The position numbers and the translations under genes were made by a program. A stretch of DNA of 58,965 bases from a virus: positions 1-58,965 of IMG/VR virus record IMGVR_UViG_3300012210_000001. The stretch is one strand, 5' to 3'. Positions 6,177 to 36,986 of this stretch are shown here, one piece after another; the first letter of the stretch is position 1; each line of letters opens with the position of its first letter. Under the pieces are notes generated by a model, which saw nothing but the letters and a program-made list of their open reading frames with translations, searched no databases and had not been told where the DNA came from.

Positions 6177-6249
6177 GCCGCTTTAGCTCAGTAGGTAGAA
6201 CAATTGCCTTGTAAGTAATTGGTCATCCGTTCGATTCGGATAGGCGGCT
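6177..6249 (+). tRNA. tRNA-Thr(UGU)
   Basis: Folded by eye. The acceptor is GCCGCTT/AGGCGGC and the D stem GCTC/GAAC has one C-A mismatch. The anticodon stem is ATTGC/GTAAT with loop CTTGTAA (anticodon TGT), and the T arm is ATCCG-TTCGATT-CGGAT. The discriminator is T and CCA is not encoded. It lies 18 bases upstream of the rtcB start, so the two are probably co-transcribed. Confidence 0.9.
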
Positions 6250-6267
6250 TTGAATGGAGAGAGAGAT

Positions 6268-7491
6268 ATGCACATTTTACCGAAATCGTCCCATGCTAAA
6301 CACATCATTAAAGCGTGGATTGATAATGTTCCGATAGATAATAAAGCGATTGAACAGCTTAATAATGTGGCTAGTCTGCCCTTTATTCACAAGCATATTG
6401 CGGTTATGCCCGATGTGCATTGGGGTATGGGGGCAACGGTGGGCAGCGTGATTCCTACTATTGGGGCAGTAGTTCCAGCAGCGGTAGGGGTTGATGTAGG
6501 ATGCGGCATGATTGCTGTCAAACTCACTTTACAAGCCTCTCAATTACCCGATAATCTGCATAATTTACGATGCGCTATTGAAGCGGCCATTCCGCATGGA
6601 CGTACCGATAATGGTGGCGTAAATGATAAGGGGGCGCGCAGCAAGCCTATTTGCGGAGAGAGTAACTCTGAATTAATACCTGATCTAGACTTAATTTTAG
6701 AAAAACATTCCTATCTTCATAAATGGAATACTGAGCGTGCATTTAGACACATGGGGACATTAGGGGGCGGCAATCATTTTATCGAATTGTGTTTAGATGA
6801 AAATCAAAACGTATGGCTTATGTTGCATTCGGGTTCACGGGGTATTGGCAATGCGCTGGGTTCTTATTTTATTGAACGTGCTAAAAAAGATATGCAGCGA
6901 TGGTTTATTAATTTACCGGATGAAGATTTAGCTTATATTCCTGAAGGCTCCGACTTATTCAATGACTATATTGAAGCCATCACATGGGCGCAGTTATATG
7001 CTGCTGCCAATCGAAAAACAATGCTTCATTATACTATGTTGGCAATTAAAGATGAACTCAATATTCACTGCTCCATAGTTGAGATGCCTATTATTAATTG
7101 CCATCATAACTATGTGACCAAAGAAAATCATTTTGGCAAGAATGTTTGGATTACCCGTAAAGGGGCCGTGCGCGCTCGCCTCGGCGATTTTGGTATAATT
7201 CCGGGGTCTATGGGCGCTAAAAGCTTTATTGTTAAAGGATTGGGAAATCCTGATTCTTTTCACAGTTGTTCTCACGGTGCTGGTCGGGTCATGAGCCGTA
7301 CCCAAGCCATTCGAGAGGTTAGCATGGAGCAGCATTTACTCGACACAATGGGAGTGGAATGTCGAAAAGATGCAAGTGTTTTAGATGAAACACCCAGAGC
7401 TTACAAAGATATTGAGGCTGTAATGGCGGCTCAAGCGGATTTGGTGGAGATAGTCCATACTTTAAAACAAATCCTTTGTATTAAAGGATAG
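6268..7491 (+). CDS. rtcB: RtcB family tRNA-splicing/repair RNA ligase
   Basis: A 407-residue RtcB. It joins 2',3'-cyclic phosphate and 5'-OH RNA ends using GTP and Mn2+. Visible motifs are VGVDVGCGM near residues 72-80 (metal-binding Asp and Cys), GGGNHFIEL near 165, LHSGSRG near 190, and SHGAGR near 335-340 with His336 in the guanylylated-histidine position. The length matches the family. The ATG at 6268 follows a GGAGAGAGAG RBS; an upstream TTG frame extension is unlikely. Its position directly after tRNA-Thr suggests repair of tRNAs cut by host anticodon nucleases. Confidence 0.95.
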   Translation: MHILPKSSHAKHIIKAWIDNVPIDNKAIEQLNNVASLPFIHKHIAVMPDVHWGMGATVGSVIPTIGAVVPAAVGVDVGCGMIAVKLTLQASQLPDNLHNLRCAIEAAIPHGRTDNGGVNDKGARSKPICGESNSELIPDLDLILEKHSYLHKWNTERAFRHMGTLGGGNHFIELCLDENQNVWLMLHSGSRGIGNALGSYFIERAKKDMQRWFINLPDEDLAYIPEGSDLFNDYIEAITWAQLYAAANRKTMLHYTMLAIKDELNIHCSIVEMPIINCHHNYVTKENHFGKNVWITRKGAVRARLGDFGIIPGSMGAKSFIVKGLGNPDSFHSCSHGAGRVMSRTQAIREVSMEQHLLDTMGVECRKDASVLDETPRAYKDIEAVMAAQADLVEIVHTLKQILCIKG

Positions 7492-15339: not shown

Positions 15340-16038
15340 TTAATGACATTCATTTAATAATTCGATTAATTTAGCCGCTTGTGCTATTCTGATTCTTTCT
15401 CTAGCATAAGCAGCATCAGCATCAGCAGCATAAGCAGCAGCAGCAGCAGCAGCATCAGCAGCAGCATCAGCAGCAGCATCAGCAGCATCAGCAGCATCAG
15501 CAGCAGCATCAGCAGCATAAGCATAAGCATAAGCATAAGCATAAGCAGGAGCAGATTTTCGGGCTTCCAACCATTCTTGAGTGGAAATTATTCTGTTTTG
15601 AGAATATAAATCTGCAATTTTCTGAATTGCATTTCTATTCATATTTGTTCTTGCATACTGAATAACTCCATATTCTTTATTTATTAATAGCCATATCGCA
15701 AATTTAGGCCAAACTGTCTTTAAAATAGCGCCCACATGAATTGCGGATAAGAATTGTCCGGGCCAAAGCTTGGCATGGTCTAATGGTAATCCTTCAAATA
15801 TTCCGTCTTCTAGTCTTGCTAATAGTCTTGGAATACCTAGTTGAATTTCATATTGAGCATGAATTGAACCAGAACAATCATTCTGCCCCATGTCAAGAGT
15901 GCATCCAACTGCACAGCCTTTTCCATTTTCCCAATAGAAACCCTTTTTAATCTCATCTGCTATTCTATGCCCTTCGACACGTGCCAAAAATTTATCTTTA
16001 ATAGCTTGATCGTTATGATAAGCCCTCAAATTTTCCAT
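15340..16038 (-). CDS. Phage protein with Ala/Asp/Tyr repeat tract
   Basis: 232 residues. The start at 16038 (MENLRAYHNDQ) has GGAGG at 8 bases; an ATG at 16044 is too close to it. The N-terminal about 150 residues (KGCAVGCTLDMGQNDCSGS, GIPRLLARLEDGIFEGLP) belong to a conserved phage and bacterial family of unknown function. A low-complexity AYAYA/ADAADAA tract near residues 165-210 follows, encoded by a CAG-rich microsatellite, and then a short basic helix. Confidence 0.7.
   Translation of the reverse strand: MENLRAYHNDQAIKDKFLARVEGHRIADEIKKGFYWENGKGCAVGCTLDMGQNDCSGSIHAQYEIQLGIPRLLARLEDGIFEGLPLDHAKLWPGQFLSAIHVGAILKTVWPKFAIWLLINKEYGVIQYARTNMNRNAIQKIADLYSQNRIISTQEWLEARKSAPAYAYAYAYAYAADAAADAADAADAAADAAADAAAAAAAYAADADAAYARERIRIAQAAKLIELLNECH
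15402..15547. repeat. Imperfect (CAGCAT/CAGCAG/CATAAG)n microsatellite
   Basis: About 145 bases of trinucleotide-type repeats (AGCATCAGCAGC and AGCATA units) lie in frame inside the gene at 15340, encoding Ala, Asp and Tyr. Such a tract can change length by slippage in multiples of three without a frameshift. It is also far richer in GC than its surroundings. Confidence 0.9.
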
Positions 16039-16040
16039 AA

Positions 16041-16277
16041 TCATTCCTCCAAAAGTTGTTGAATCGTTTCATCACTGGAGACATTGAATTGATTCCATGC
16101 CTCCACTAATCCATAATTATCTGCAAATTCATCAATGCGCCGTCTTAATTCTCTGAGTTCATTTTCAGTTTGTATATGTTCATAATCAGCGACACTTAAT
16201 CCTGCTTTTATTTCACTCATCATGCCTTGTTGATGGCGAATGACTTCGATTAATGTTTGAATGTCTTTATTTTCCAT
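16041..16277 (-). CDS. Small acidic helical protein
   Basis: 78 residues, mostly amphipathic helix (RELRRRIDEFADNYGLVEAW), preceded by GGAGGAAG. It overlaps the upstream gene end by 11 bases. Its stop at 16041 lies 3 bases before the next gene start. No family is recognised. Confidence 0.6.
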   Translation of the reverse strand: MENKDIQTLIEVIRHQQGMMSEIKAGLSVADYEHIQTENELRELRRRIDEFADNYGLVEAWNQFNVSSDETIQQLLEE

Positions 16278-19931: not shown

Positions 19932-20339
19932 ATGAAAAGAAAGTGTCCTTTAGAAAATGCAGAAGCAAAAATGTTCAAAGATTGGGCTGATTATCATCCT
20001 ATTGTTAAGCTTTATTTAGCTCCAATACCCAATGGTGGGTCACGTAATAAACTGGAAGCACTGAATATGCGGCGGCGTGGTCAGACACGTGCGGGGGTAA
20101 GTGATTACTTTTTGGCCTATCCTGTCGATAAACAAAAATGGGATGATAAGCTGCATGGATTGTTCACTACCCATTGTAATGGCCTTTGGATTGAATTAAA
20201 GCGCCGTGATAAGACGATTAGTAAACCCACCCCTGAGCAGCGGGAATGGCTGGAACGCATGACAGACATCGGTTATGCGACCGTAGTGGCGTATGGGGCT
20301 GATGAGGCTATCAAGGCGGTGGAAGAATACTTGCGTTAA
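19932..20339 (+). CDS. VRR-NUC domain nuclease
   Basis: 135 residues. PNGGSRNKLEALNMRRRGQT, GVSDYFLAYP, then GLWIELKRRDKT and TPEQREWLERM with a terminal VVAYGADEAIKAVEEYL form the standalone phage VRR-NUC (PD-(D/E)xK) fold. The D of GVSDYF and the ELK are the predicted metal-binding residues. Relatives cut branched or single-stranded DNA and may resolve junctions. It is a lone plus-strand gene beside the candidate origin. Confidence 0.9.
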   Translation: MKRKCPLENAEAKMFKDWADYHPIVKLYLAPIPNGGSRNKLEALNMRRRGQTRAGVSDYFLAYPVDKQKWDDKLHGLFTTHCNGLWIELKRRDKTISKPTPEQREWLERMTDIGYATVVAYGADEAIKAVEEYLR

Positions 20340-33505: not shown

Positions 33506-33781
33506 GTGAGTTCAGAAATGCGTATACAGGCTTTTAAAGAGATCACTGAGAATAAGAAATGGGAAGATATGAAAGAAATCTGGGAATTATGTAAAACTAA
33601 TAAAATTCCTATTCCTCAAGAAGTGATCAATTATTTTGAAGGGGGAGAACCACACTTTTATGGAATTAGTGTAAATATTAATAATTTAGTACGATGCAGG
33701 ACACTGGGTTGGAAACATTATGCAGATATTCGCTTATGCGACTTACCATCCGACATTAGTATGCTGCGATTCTTGGTATAA
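33506..33781 (+). CDS. Hypothetical protein, first gene of the plus arm
   Basis: 91 residues from a GTG with AGAGGAG 8 bases upstream; an ATG at 33518 is an alternative. Helical N-terminus (KWEDMKEIWELCKTNKI) and a beta-like end. It precedes the DUF2384-type gene by 2 bases, so the two may act together. No family. Confidence 0.6.
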   Translation: MSSEMRIQAFKEITENKKWEDMKEIWELCKTNKIPIPQEVINYFEGGEPHFYGISVNINNLVRCRTLGWKHYADIRLCDLPSDISMLRFLV

Positions 33782-33783
33782 TT

Positions 33784-34026
33784 ATGAACAAAGAAACTAC
33801 CTTATCTCCTAGAGATATCAAATCTGATTCACAGCTTCATATTCCTATGGAATGCTATAGGCTAGTGGGCGAATTCTTCAAGGGCGACAAGAAAAAGACT
33901 AATCTATGGTTTGAGAGCAAGAATCCGCTGCTAGGCAATGTTAGCCCTGATGACATGCTAGAGATGGGTAGAGGATGGAAGTTGTTAAAGTTTCTTCAGG
34001 CACAATTAGATGGGAATAATCCATGA
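33784..34026 (+). CDS. MbcA/ParS/Xre antitoxin-type domain (DUF2384) protein
   Basis: 80 residues. LVGEFFKGDKKKTNLWFES then NPLLGNVSPDDMLEMGRGWK and KLLKFLQAQL match the toxin-binding domain of the MbcA/ParS/Xre antitoxins that pair with RES-domain NAD-degrading toxins. The HTH half is missing and no RES toxin is encoded nearby. In a phage it could bind and block a host RES toxin. Confidence 0.75.
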   Translation: MNKETTLSPRDIKSDSQLHIPMECYRLVGEFFKGDKKKTNLWFESKNPLLGNVSPDDMLEMGRGWKLLKFLQAQLDGNNP

Positions 34027-34301
34027 GCAAGAACAAGAGCTTTGAATTTTTAAAGTACAAGTCACACCAAATTAGTCATAGTAATTTAGCTTCTTTTATT
34101 ACGCCCAATATGAACAAAATTATAAAATATAAACCTCCTTGTATTTTATGTCGTTCTAATTGTGAACAAGTTTGTTTTAGCAAGTTTTCTCACTCTGATG
34201 ATTCATATATGATAGTATATTCTATTTGTAAATCATGTCTTAATGATAAAGATCATGAGGGAAAAATGTTGAAATTTGTGAAGACTAAGTTATTTCATTG
34301 A
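34023..34301 (+). CDS. Zinc-type Cys protein
   Basis: 92 residues. PPCILCRSNCEQVC and ICKSCLN give a C4-type site in an otherwise basic protein. ATGA coupled to the antitoxin-like gene. Function unknown. Confidence 0.6.
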   Translation: MSKNKSFEFLKYKSHQISHSNLASFITPNMNKIIKYKPPCILCRSNCEQVCFSKFSHSDDSYMIVYSICKSCLNDKDHEGKMLKFVKTKLFH

Positions 34302-34313
34302 GGAGAGTAGTCC

Positions 34314-34487
34314 ATGTTAGCACAACTTGATATAACTTTGGCTCAATTAAGTCTAGTGGAATGGATTAAGCTACTTGCAGTCATTTATATGGTAGGACTA
34401 GCTGGGATGATGGCAATAATCGTTCCTTATATGGGCTATACAATTATAAGAGATATTATAGAAGATATTTGGTGGAAGTCAGAATGA
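34314..34487 (+). CDS. Single-TM protein
   Basis: 57 residues with a hydrophobic central helix (LLAVIYMVGLAGMMAIIVPY) and an acidic C-terminus. A strong GAGGAGAG precedes the ATG. ATGA overlap with the next gene. No family. Confidence 0.65.
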   Translation: MLAQLDITLAQLSLVEWIKLLAVIYMVGLAGMMAIIVPYMGYTIIRDIIEDIWWKSE

Positions 34488-34675
34488 GCTTAGTGAGCAA
34501 TTGGCTGAGAGAGCTAAGGATTATTGGGCCACCTGATCCATCATTATTCTCTGATCTAAAATATTATGTGGAGTACGCGCCTGGTTATACTAACTTTGGG
34601 AATCTCATATATACGGGGCATATTAGTTATATTAGTAAAGATGCTTTGAGAATAGCATATCCATTGGGAGATTAA
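34484..34675 (+). CDS. Small hypothetical protein
   Basis: 63 residues starting MSLVSNWLRELRIIGPPDPS at 34484, coupled to the TM gene upstream. Tyr-rich. It ends 3 bases before the PRPP-synthetase-like gene. Confidence 0.55.
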   Translation: MSLVSNWLRELRIIGPPDPSLFSDLKYYVEYAPGYTNFGNLIYTGHISYISKDALRIAYPLGD

Positions 34676-34678
34676 TAA

Positions 34679-35515
34679 ATGACCATATTAATAAACTCAA
34701 TTCCCATTGAAAGTTTTAACTTTCCAGGTGGTGAATGTTCTGTAAAGATTCCTGAAATTTGCTTTGATAGGAATGCAATTACAGCTTATCTCTATTCTTC
34801 AAATGACATAATGAAATTGTTATTAACGGTTGATGCAATACGCCGAATTTATCCAATGGCTAAGATTACTTTAATTATTCCTTACTTTCCATATGCTAGA
34901 CAAGATAGAGTCTGTAATCAAGGAGAAGCTTTGAGTGTTAAAATAATGGCTAATCTAATTAATGGCTTGAATTGTGATGAAGTTATTATCTATGATCCGC
35001 ATTCTGACGTAACATCTGCATTGATTAATAATTGTCATACTGTCGATTCCTTGAAGTTAATTAATGGTAGTATATTATTCAATACTATTGAAGATGATCA
35101 AAATTTAATATTTATCTCTCCTGATAATGGAGCAGAAAAGAAAGTTAGAAATATAGCAAAATATTTTAATCGCCGTATGATATGTGCAACTAAAGTAAGG
35201 GATATAGCAACGGGTGAGATTATAGATACTCATATTATGTTGCGGGATCATATTATAGTTAATCCAAATCAAAATTTGCTCATTATTGATGATATTTGTG
35301 ATGGTGGAAGAACATTTATTGAAATTGCTAAGAAATTAGTAGCACAAAGACCAAAAGGTAATCTCTATCTGTATGTTACTCATGGCATATTTTCTAAAGG
35401 TTTAGACCCATTAAAAGAGTACTTCAATAAAGTATTTTGCTATCATACTATGTTGCCTTCAGATAGAATTGACCGAGATTTTTTAACTATTATTGGAGAG
35501 AGACATGCTGATTAA
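34679..35515 (+). CDS. PRPP-synthetase-like enzyme, candidate Adps of NARP1
   Basis: 278 residues. FPYARQDR near residue 70 and LLIIDDICDGGRTF near 200-213 are the ATP/substrate and PRPP-loop motifs of ribose-phosphate pyrophosphokinase (usual length about 315, so this is short). In NARP1 such proteins act as Adps, transferring pyrophosphate to ADP-ribose. Canonical PRPP synthesis from ribose-5-phosphate is the alternative. The gene overlaps the transferase downstream by 11 bases, so the two products are coupled. Confidence 0.85.
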   Translation: MTILINSIPIESFNFPGGECSVKIPEICFDRNAITAYLYSSNDIMKLLLTVDAIRRIYPMAKITLIIPYFPYARQDRVCNQGEALSVKIMANLINGLNCDEVIIYDPHSDVTSALINNCHTVDSLKLINGSILFNTIEDDQNLIFISPDNGAEKKVRNIAKYFNRRMICATKVRDIATGEIIDTHIMLRDHIIVNPNQNLLIIDDICDGGRTFIEIAKKLVAQRPKGNLYLYVTHGIFSKGLDPLKEYFNKVFCYHTMLPSDRIDRDFLTIIGERHAD

Positions 35516-36986
35516 TGCATTAAATGCAATTGATTTCTATAAAACTGATCATCGCAGACAATATCCGGCTGGCACAACAGAGGTATATGCTAACTTTACC
35601 CCGAGAAGTGATCATTATGCAAATATGGGAATTGATTTTGACCATCATATTATATTCTTTGGATTGCAATATTTTATTCTGGATTATCTAATCGGAAATT
35701 GGAGTCAAACATTCTTTCGTTTACGCAAAAGCGTAGCCATTTCTGCTTATAAAAGGCGCATGGATTTTGCATTAGGAGAAGATGCCATCCGTATGGAGCA
35801 TATTGAAGCGTTGCATGATCTAGGATATTTACCATTGAAAATTAAAGCACTTCCTGAAGGCACGCGAGTACCCATTGGTGTGCCAGTATTGACTATATTA
35901 AATACCCATCCTGATTTCTTCTGGCTGACTAATTATATTGAGTCTGTTTTATCTTGTTATTTGTGGAAACCAATTACTTCAGCCACTATTGCATTTCAAT
36001 ATAGAAAACTCTTGACTCAATATGCACTGAAAACGCATAGTTCTTTAGATTTTGTTCCATTTCAAGCGCATGATTTCTCTTTCAGGGGACTTAGTGGGCC
36101 TCAAGATGCAGCAAGTAGTGGAGCGGCTCATTTAACGTCTTTCGTAGGCACGGATACGGTTCTAGCAATAGATTTTCATGAATACTATTATGGTGCTGAT
36201 GCGGAAATAGAGTTAATCGGTTGTTCTGTTCCGGCTACTGAACATTCAGTAATGTGTATGGGCATGGAGGATGGAGAATTGAATACCTTTAGGCGACTAA
36301 TCAATGACATCTATCCATCCGGTATTGTCTCTATTGTCTCGGATACATGGGATTTCTGGAAAGTGATTACTGAATATACAGTAGAGCTTAAGCAAGATAT
36401 ATTGCAGCGTAATGGTAAGGTAGTATTAAGACCAGACTCAGGTGATCCCATTAAAATTATATGTGGTGATCCAGAAGCCGAAAAATACAGCCCTCAATAT
36501 AAAGGTGCTGTTCAATGTTTATGGGAAGTATTCGGTGGTGAAACTAGAAATGGATACAGTCATTTAGATAGTCATATTGGTTTAATCTATGGCGATTCAA
36601 TTACATTAGATCGTGCTGAAATGATTTTAAAGGGATTAGCTAATAAAGGATTCGCCTCCGATAATATCGTATTTGGAGTGGGTTCATATACCTACCAACA
36701 TGTAACGCGCGATACATTCGGATGGGCAGTAAAAACAACTAGTGGAAAGGTTGGTAATGAGCGTAGGGATATATTTAAAGACCCTAAAACAGATTCCGGG
36801 ACTAAGCGGTCAGCTAAGGGATTATTGAGAATAGATTATAATGAGCAGGGAAAACTTGCTTTATTTGATCAACAAACGCTTGAACAAGAGAATACTGGAA
36901 AATTAGAAACGATATTCTTGAATGGAAGCCTTAAGATTAGTACTACACTTCAAGAGATTAGAGAACGAATAAAGGAACAATTATGA
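35505..36986 (+). CDS. Nicotinamide phosphoribosyltransferase-like, candidate Namat of NARP1
   Basis: 493 residues. DFYKTDHRRQYPAGTTEVYA, HDFSFRGLSGPQDAASSGAA, VPATEHSVMCMG (His247 in the phospho-histidine position), VLRPDSGDP and FGVGSYTYQHVTRDTFGWA are the NAMPT signatures; the length is normal. GGAGAG precedes the ATG at 35505. With the upstream Prs-like enzyme it would make NMN, or in a NARP1 system NAD+ directly from ADP-ribose pyrophosphate and nicotinamide. No NMN adenylyltransferase is recognisable in the genome, which fits NARP1 or use of the host enzyme. Confidence 0.93.
   Translation: MLINALNAIDFYKTDHRRQYPAGTTEVYANFTPRSDHYANMGIDFDHHIIFFGLQYFILDYLIGNWSQTFFRLRKSVAISAYKRRMDFALGEDAIRMEHIEALHDLGYLPLKIKALPEGTRVPIGVPVLTILNTHPDFFWLTNYIESVLSCYLWKPITSATIAFQYRKLLTQYALKTHSSLDFVPFQAHDFSFRGLSGPQDAASSGAAHLTSFVGTDTVLAIDFHEYYYGADAEIELIGCSVPATEHSVMCMGMEDGELNTFRRLINDIYPSGIVSIVSDTWDFWKVITEYTVELKQDILQRNGKVVLRPDSGDPIKIICGDPEAEKYSPQYKGAVQCLWEVFGGETRNGYSHLDSHIGLIYGDSITLDRAEMILKGLANKGFASDNIVFGVGSYTYQHVTRDTFGWAVKTTSGKVGNERRDIFKDPKTDSGTKRSAKGLLRIDYNEQGKLALFDQQTLEQENTGKLETIFLNGSLKISTTLQEIRERIKEQL

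Follow-up and report, generated by a model that had tools for sequence, protein, structure and literature searches.

A predicted NARP1 NAD+ reconstitution operon and an orphan RES-antitoxin domain share a gene array in an unclassified virus of bacteria

IMG/VR record IMGVR_UViG_3300012210_000001, a 58,965-bp genome from an unclassified virus of bacteria that we analyzed over its full length (the window), very probably carries at 34679-36986 a NARP1 operon for reconstitution of nicotinamide adenine dinucleotide (NAD+). The two genes encode an Adps-like protein, predicted to be an ADP-ribose pyrophosphate (ADPR-PP) synthetase with the fold of phosphoribosyl pyrophosphate (PRPP) synthetase (Prs), and a predicted Namat, a nicotinamide ADP-ribose transferase with the fold of nicotinamide phosphoribosyltransferase (Nampt). 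In the proposed pathway, Adps would pyrophosphorylate, at the expense of ATP, the ADP-ribose freed by host NADase defenses, and Namat would couple the ADPR-PP to nicotinamide, restoring NAD+ directly without a nicotinamide mononucleotide (NMN) adenylyltransferase (NMNAT). We identify the operon as NARP1 on the combined evidence of the trees, the residues of the active site and clamp, and the order of the genes, which bears out this part of an earlier sequence-only reading of this DNA. The phage kit is a further member of the known NARP1 family; what is rare is its pairing with an antitoxin-like gene, which lies upstream and encodes an 80-aa protein.

Both open reading frames (ORFs) of the pair are present as first described, adjacent on the same strand and overlapping by 11 bases, and match, with overwhelming support, the Prs-like phrog_619 (4e-82) and the Nampt-like phrog_448 (5e-195). 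The overlap holds because the ATG at 35505, which has a good Shine-Dalgarno site (TTGGAGAGAGAC), is taken as the namat start. The best PDB match of the Namat-like protein was the SPbetaL1 Namat (9w5x/9w5w, 536 bits), with human Nampt at 231 bits. In a tree of 87 rows, computed by quick search with Shimodaira-Hasegawa-like approximate likelihood ratio test (SH-aLRT) support and no bootstrap, the human, Xanthomonas (Xcc), and phage Nampts fell on one side and the window protein on the other (SH-aLRT 99), the latter grouping in a superclade with the Namat proteins of SPbetaL1, ICP1, and mycobacteriophages. Using contact and clamp residues as defined by Lan et al. from the Namat-NAD+ structure (PMC12774641), we found all nicotinamide/ribose contacts to be identical in the window protein (D13, Y15, F189, S190, R192, D215, A242, R306, D308, G360, D361, G390, S391, T398, R399, and D400). 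Its clamp helix, GSYTYQHVTRD, departs by Phe392 to Tyr and Tyr396 to His, placing Tyr at clamp position 3 and His at position 7, and fits the Namat consensus GSX-phi-X-phi-X-phi-TRD. The clamp of the DyoEdafos Namat, GSFTYQHNTRD, carries the same position-7 His, and in vitro that enzyme and its Adps together produce NAD+ from ADP-ribose (PMC13232231); thus, the His does not disqualify the window protein.

The Adps-like protein was likewise separated from true PRPP synthetases. In its tree, three of the latter (E. coli, human, and 4twb) split from all Namat-linked homologues (support 99). The window protein retains the Prs catalytic residues Lys194, Arg196, His131, Asp170, Asp220, and Asp221 (E. 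coli numbering). At the position of Thr225, in contrast, it has Gly, as do 53 of 58 Namat-linked homologues, and none of the 58 has Thr. We take Thr225 to belong to the PRPP synthetase loop that grips the 5'-phosphate of ribose-5-phosphate; its change to Gly is consistent with a bulkier group, such as ADP, at the 5' position. Grouping with true Prs and Nampt had been named beforehand as the outcome that would speak against NARP1, and both enzymes fall outside those groups, whereas enzymes of canonical Prs-Nampt salvage would fall within them. NARP2, which combines Nampt with NMNAT, does not describe the window either, since it encodes no NMN adenylyltransferase: a search for the CTP_transf_like/NMNAT domain found none at E<=10, while 14 of 14 control genomes were positive. 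The absence of this enzyme from a closed genome had been part of the initial description and stands, "closed" being a fair term because the record carries a 123-bp direct terminal repeat at its ends. It nevertheless counts for little as evidence, since an NMNAT is also missing from most virus records with NARP1 and the host may supply one.

In both trees the window is flanked by NARP1 systems with experimental support, namely those of SPbetaL1, of ICP1, and of a mycobacteriophage related to DyoEdafos. The NARP1 systems of SPbetaL1, Bas63, and DyoEdafos and NrsAB of ICP1 share with the window the adps-namat order and tight coupling, the Namat core and clamp motif, and the Adps active site. Of these, ICP1 NrsAB raises NAD+ and defeats the Nezha NADase system genetically (PMC11559045); its NrsB is 50% identical to the window Namat and its NrsA 39% identical to the window Adps. 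The predicted window enzymes are divergent from those of the known phage systems (about 50% identity for Namat, 31-39% for Adps).

Several observations weigh against this assignment. At clamp position 40, the third residue of the clamp loop, the window has His, followed by a Tyr that may stack, where the SPbetaL1, Bas63, DyoEdafos, and ICP1 proteins have Arg, Lys, or Tyr. Both clamp aromatics are kept in 105 of 113 Adps-linked sequences versus 5 of 30 unlinked ones (Fisher test, 2.6e-16; all loci included, His accepted as aromatic at position 7), and we do not take this association as significant because it rests on just 5 well-supported independent contrasts. If no ADPR-PP is present, the SPbetaL1 Namat makes NMN in vitro (PMC12774641). 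Moreover, both enzymes have their closest kin in bacterial Adps-Namat operons, most of which carry NadM/Nudix as a third gene. The last two points also favor a pair of PRPP synthetase and nicotinamide phosphoribosyltransferase whose NMN would be converted to NAD+ by a host NMN adenylyltransferase, the kin in question being cyanobacterial, Coxiellaceae, alphaproteobacterial, and Acinetobacter. A Pasteurellaceae NadV branch, which we take to be Nampt, also lies inside the Namat superclade. In this branch, however, the clamp aromatics are lost (GAQTYQRNTRD and similar) and no Adps occurs in the flanks examined, so that by sequence it looks like a Namat reverted to Nampt, whereas the window has both the motif and an Adps. 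Given also the loss of the 5'-phosphate Thr from the window Adps, the lack of a phage NMNAT, and the bracketing by supported systems, we consider salvage through NMN improbable and retain NARP1. Since the nearest kin are such trio operons, a PRPP/NMN side activity may persist. The Pasteurellaceae NadV loci are L121, L122, L124-L130, L132, L135, L138, L154, L159, L160, and L162, and PDB 9ke8 falls within their branch.

Both trees nest the window among bacterial loci, from cyanobacterial, Coxiellaceae, Rickettsia-labeled, and alphaproteobacterial metagenome-assembled genomes (MAGs), with the nearest sequences 64-71% identical for Namat and up to 54% for Adps. In the phage pair we thus probably see a bacterial-type operon minus its third gene: the Adps-Namat-NadM/Nudix operons of Acinetobacter, Coxiellaceae, and cyanobacterial MAGs are closest to it in sequence and differ in adding an NMNAT/Nudix gene. 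That a phage bearing a P22-type portal gene has NARP1 enzymes falling within a bacterial clade speaks for exchange of the module between phages and bacterial chromosomes. For the bacterial trio loci themselves (L083, L098-L105, L107, and L108), NARP1 chemistry and NMN salvage are both possible; L083 is filed as "Acinetobacter phage MD-2021a" yet has chromosomal-looking genes. A search of the literature on Acinetobacter nadV-nadM operons was without result.

The sequence-only reading had also placed a stand-alone MbcA/ParS/Xre-type domain, of the kind that partners RES toxins, upstream of the pair. Taken singly, the profile matches count against it, as DUF2384 (PF09722) scored 18.1 bits where the curated cut-off is 24.5, and NCBIfam NF049845, "type II RES/Xre antitoxin," matched at 7e-5, also below its cut-off. 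By tblastn, the closest relative of the 80-aa protein was gp26 of Stenotrophomonas phage S1 (49% over 45 aa, E 6e-9), and the gene immediately following, gp25, encodes a protein with a RES domain (PF08808, 1.3e-12). Among the weak plasmid matches listed, most are annotated as Xre/MbcA/ParS antitoxins, one with an adjacent RES gene. An AlphaFold2 model built from a two-sequence alignment (mean predicted local distance difference test score 78.7, core about 90) gave MbcA, VPA0769, Xre, NatR, and ParS as top fold matches (VIA Z 9.7-6.5), with unrelated chains next (2.5); the Foldseek E-values for this predicted fold are themselves weak. Because four independent lines, the S1 gp26 match, the plasmid matches, NF049845, and the fold comparison, agree, we regard the sub-threshold DUF2384 call as confirmed: by sequence and predicted fold, the protein carries a genuine RES-antitoxin toxin-binding domain, and the proposed kinship with partners of RES toxins is upheld by its nearest relative. 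Searches with the protein found no relatives in IMG/VR or GTDB genomes and no match in PHROGs or PADLOC.

The protein shares this toxin-binding domain with the antitoxins of the RES/Xre systems MbcTA, ParST, NatRT, VPA0770-VPA0769, and S1 gp26-gp25. Unlike those systems, which have an N-terminal DNA-binding domain and an adjacent RES toxin, it has neither; S1 gp26 is a full antitoxin with the N-terminal region, and the window protein keeps the toxin-binding part alone. As it is without the helix-turn-helix (HTH) domain and PF08808 has no match in the genome at E<=10, we regard it as an orphan antitoxin. The S1 genes gp26-gp25 (L095:4743-6143) have no annotated function but form a RES/Xre toxin-antitoxin pair themselves; their phage also has an integrase and a repressor. 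The gap between the orphan gene and adps measures 652 bp, in keeping with the roughly 650 bp first reported; packed ORFs, the three following the orphan gene in Table 1, fill this gap, so that the gene does not stand apart from the pair. The array at 33506-36986 consists of seven plus-strand genes that are tightly packed and mostly overlap or have strong Shine-Dalgarno sites. No plus-strand terminator-like site lies between 33506 and the start of the adps-namat pair, and the sole one within 33506-36986, at 36843, is inside the last gene.

The upstream protein would most likely bind host RES-type toxins and plug their active site, and we give such blocking, predicted from the domain, about even chances. 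The toxins targeted would either consume NAD+ beyond NARP1 repair or ADP-ribosylate Prs. NatT and MbcT phosphorolyse NAD+ to nicotinamide and ADP-ribose-1''-phosphate, not to free ADP-ribose. Adps, to judge from its reaction, requires a free anomeric hydroxyl and should not use this product directly, and the window has no macrodomain match; for both reasons NARP1 alone should not undo RES damage. By this reasoning a direct RES blocker would complement NARP1. Joint action of the two parts is a plausible hypothesis, and their pairing is rare. A counter-defense island, in which NARP1 and a toxin-less, HTH-less RES antitoxin would cover both ADP-ribose-releasing NADases and RES NAD+ phosphorylases, is accordingly offered only tentatively, as a proposal we think rather doubtful. 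A precedent is the ICP1 protein AdfB, with which the phage counters DarT by mimicking an antitoxin (PMC11481870): like the window protein as proposed, it is an antitoxin-like phage protein directed at an NAD-using host toxin, whereas its target is DarT, not RES, and its family is different. If true, the coupled island would be the first evidence of RES toxins acting in phage defense; a phage antitoxin that neutralizes RES toxins would imply a role for them in phage immunity, and an orphan RES antitoxin beside NARP1 makes the purpose of RES toxin-antitoxin systems a testable question.

Rarity is the chief difficulty for joint action. Among about 80 virus and 69 bacterial loci, one other phage (L004, again as L167) has DUF2384 near NARP1, and PF09722 occurs in 1 of 50 NARP1-bearing virus records. 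In addition, no part in phage immunity had been ascribed to RES toxins at the time of the NatT study, in which P. aeruginosa NatT left susceptibility to >50 phages unchanged (PMC11535050). The rarity suits the view that the DUF2384 protein is a decaying remnant of a RES toxin-antitoxin module or a neutral passenger unrelated to NARP1, as do the full antitoxin and following RES gene in S1 and the window's lack of a RES domain and of a tyrosine-integrase match. Against decay, the ORF is intact, starts two bases past the upstream stop, and overlaps the next gene; exactly the toxin-binding domain is retained; and L004, although unrelated, likewise has an HTH-less DUF2384 gene 2.3 kb upstream of its Adps. 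We regard the remnant or passenger as a real possibility, somewhat short of even. It is also conceivable that what the protein shields is Prs or Adps, rather than the NAD+ pool, the threat being a RES toxin of the ParT type, which ADP-ribosylates PRPP synthetase. ParT of ParST inactivates Prs (Piscotta 2019, cited in PMC12204516), and Adps is homologous to Prs. ParS (6d0h_D) also figures in the fold matches and has the lowest root mean square deviation of them (2.6 A, Z 6.9). As the antitoxins of NAD-degrading RES partners (VPA0769, Xre, NatR, and MbcA) score equal or higher in the same comparison, we think a Prs shield unlikely.

Table 1. Coordinates of the rightward gene array and of motifs within the predicted NARP1 enzymes
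Feature	Position	Strand	Basis or remark
91-aa ORF, no assigned function	33506..33781	+	GTG start, good Shine-Dalgarno; first gene of array
80-aa orphan antitoxin-like protein, Xre/MbcA/ParS C-terminal toxin-binding domain (predicted)	33784..34026	+	PF09722 sub-threshold, S1 gp26 match, AlphaFold2 fold
92-aa cysteine-rich ORF, no assigned function	34023..34301	+	start overlaps stop of 33784-34026 gene (ATGA)
57-aa ORF	34314..34487	+	Shine-Dalgarno; hydrophobic stretch
Small ORF, no assigned function	34484..34675	+	ATG 34484, overlaps 34314-34487 ORF (ATGA)
Adps-like, predicted ADP-ribose pyrophosphate synthetase (Prs fold)	34679..35515	+	PF13793 7.5e-14, phrog_619 4e-82, tree, residue table
Adps loop DDICDGGRT	35288..35314	+	equivalent of Prs ribose-5-phosphate-binding loop DDMIDTGGT, Thr225 to Gly
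Namat-like, predicted nicotinamide ADP-ribose transferase (Nampt fold)	35505..36986	+	PDB 9w5x match, tree, contact residues
Namat selectivity-clamp loop region PRSDHY	35601..35618	+	His at Arg40 position, then Tyr
Namat selectivity-clamp helix motif GSYTYQHVTRD	36681..36713	+	consensus from PMC12774641; His also in DyoEdafos Namat

Of the small ORFs in the array, the 91-aa product has no significant Pfam or PHROG match and the 92-aa product no family match in Pfam, PHROG, or NCBIfam. The phage is remote from deposited genomes: its 20-45 kb part (25 kb) has no DNA-level relatives among 50,697 phage records, and its terminase is at most about 30% identical to those of the best deposited phages. 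RyR/RyDEP domains were not found in the window. A 234-aa ORF at 15340-16041 includes, close to its C-terminus, a long AYAYAYADAADAA tract of low complexity. A small 135-aa nuclease-like protein (19932-20339), without a Pfam match and VRR-NUC-like by eye only, lies 14 kb from NARP1 in the window itself, while six virus loci (L002:4552-4944, L014, L022, L055, and others) have relatives of it close to NARP1. An RtcB RNA ligase (PF01139, 1.4e-126; 6177-7491) is encoded directly 3' of a tRNA-Thr gene, with tRNA-Pro and tRNA-Leu close by, and a possible role is tRNA repair against host anticodon nucleases. RtcB homologues also occur directly upstream of adps-namat in L057 (3810-5009) and L028 (3535-4719) and about 3 kb downstream in L066 (10946-12013) and L068 (10522-11589), which suggests that tRNA-repair and NAD-repair genes share counter-defense islands in phages.

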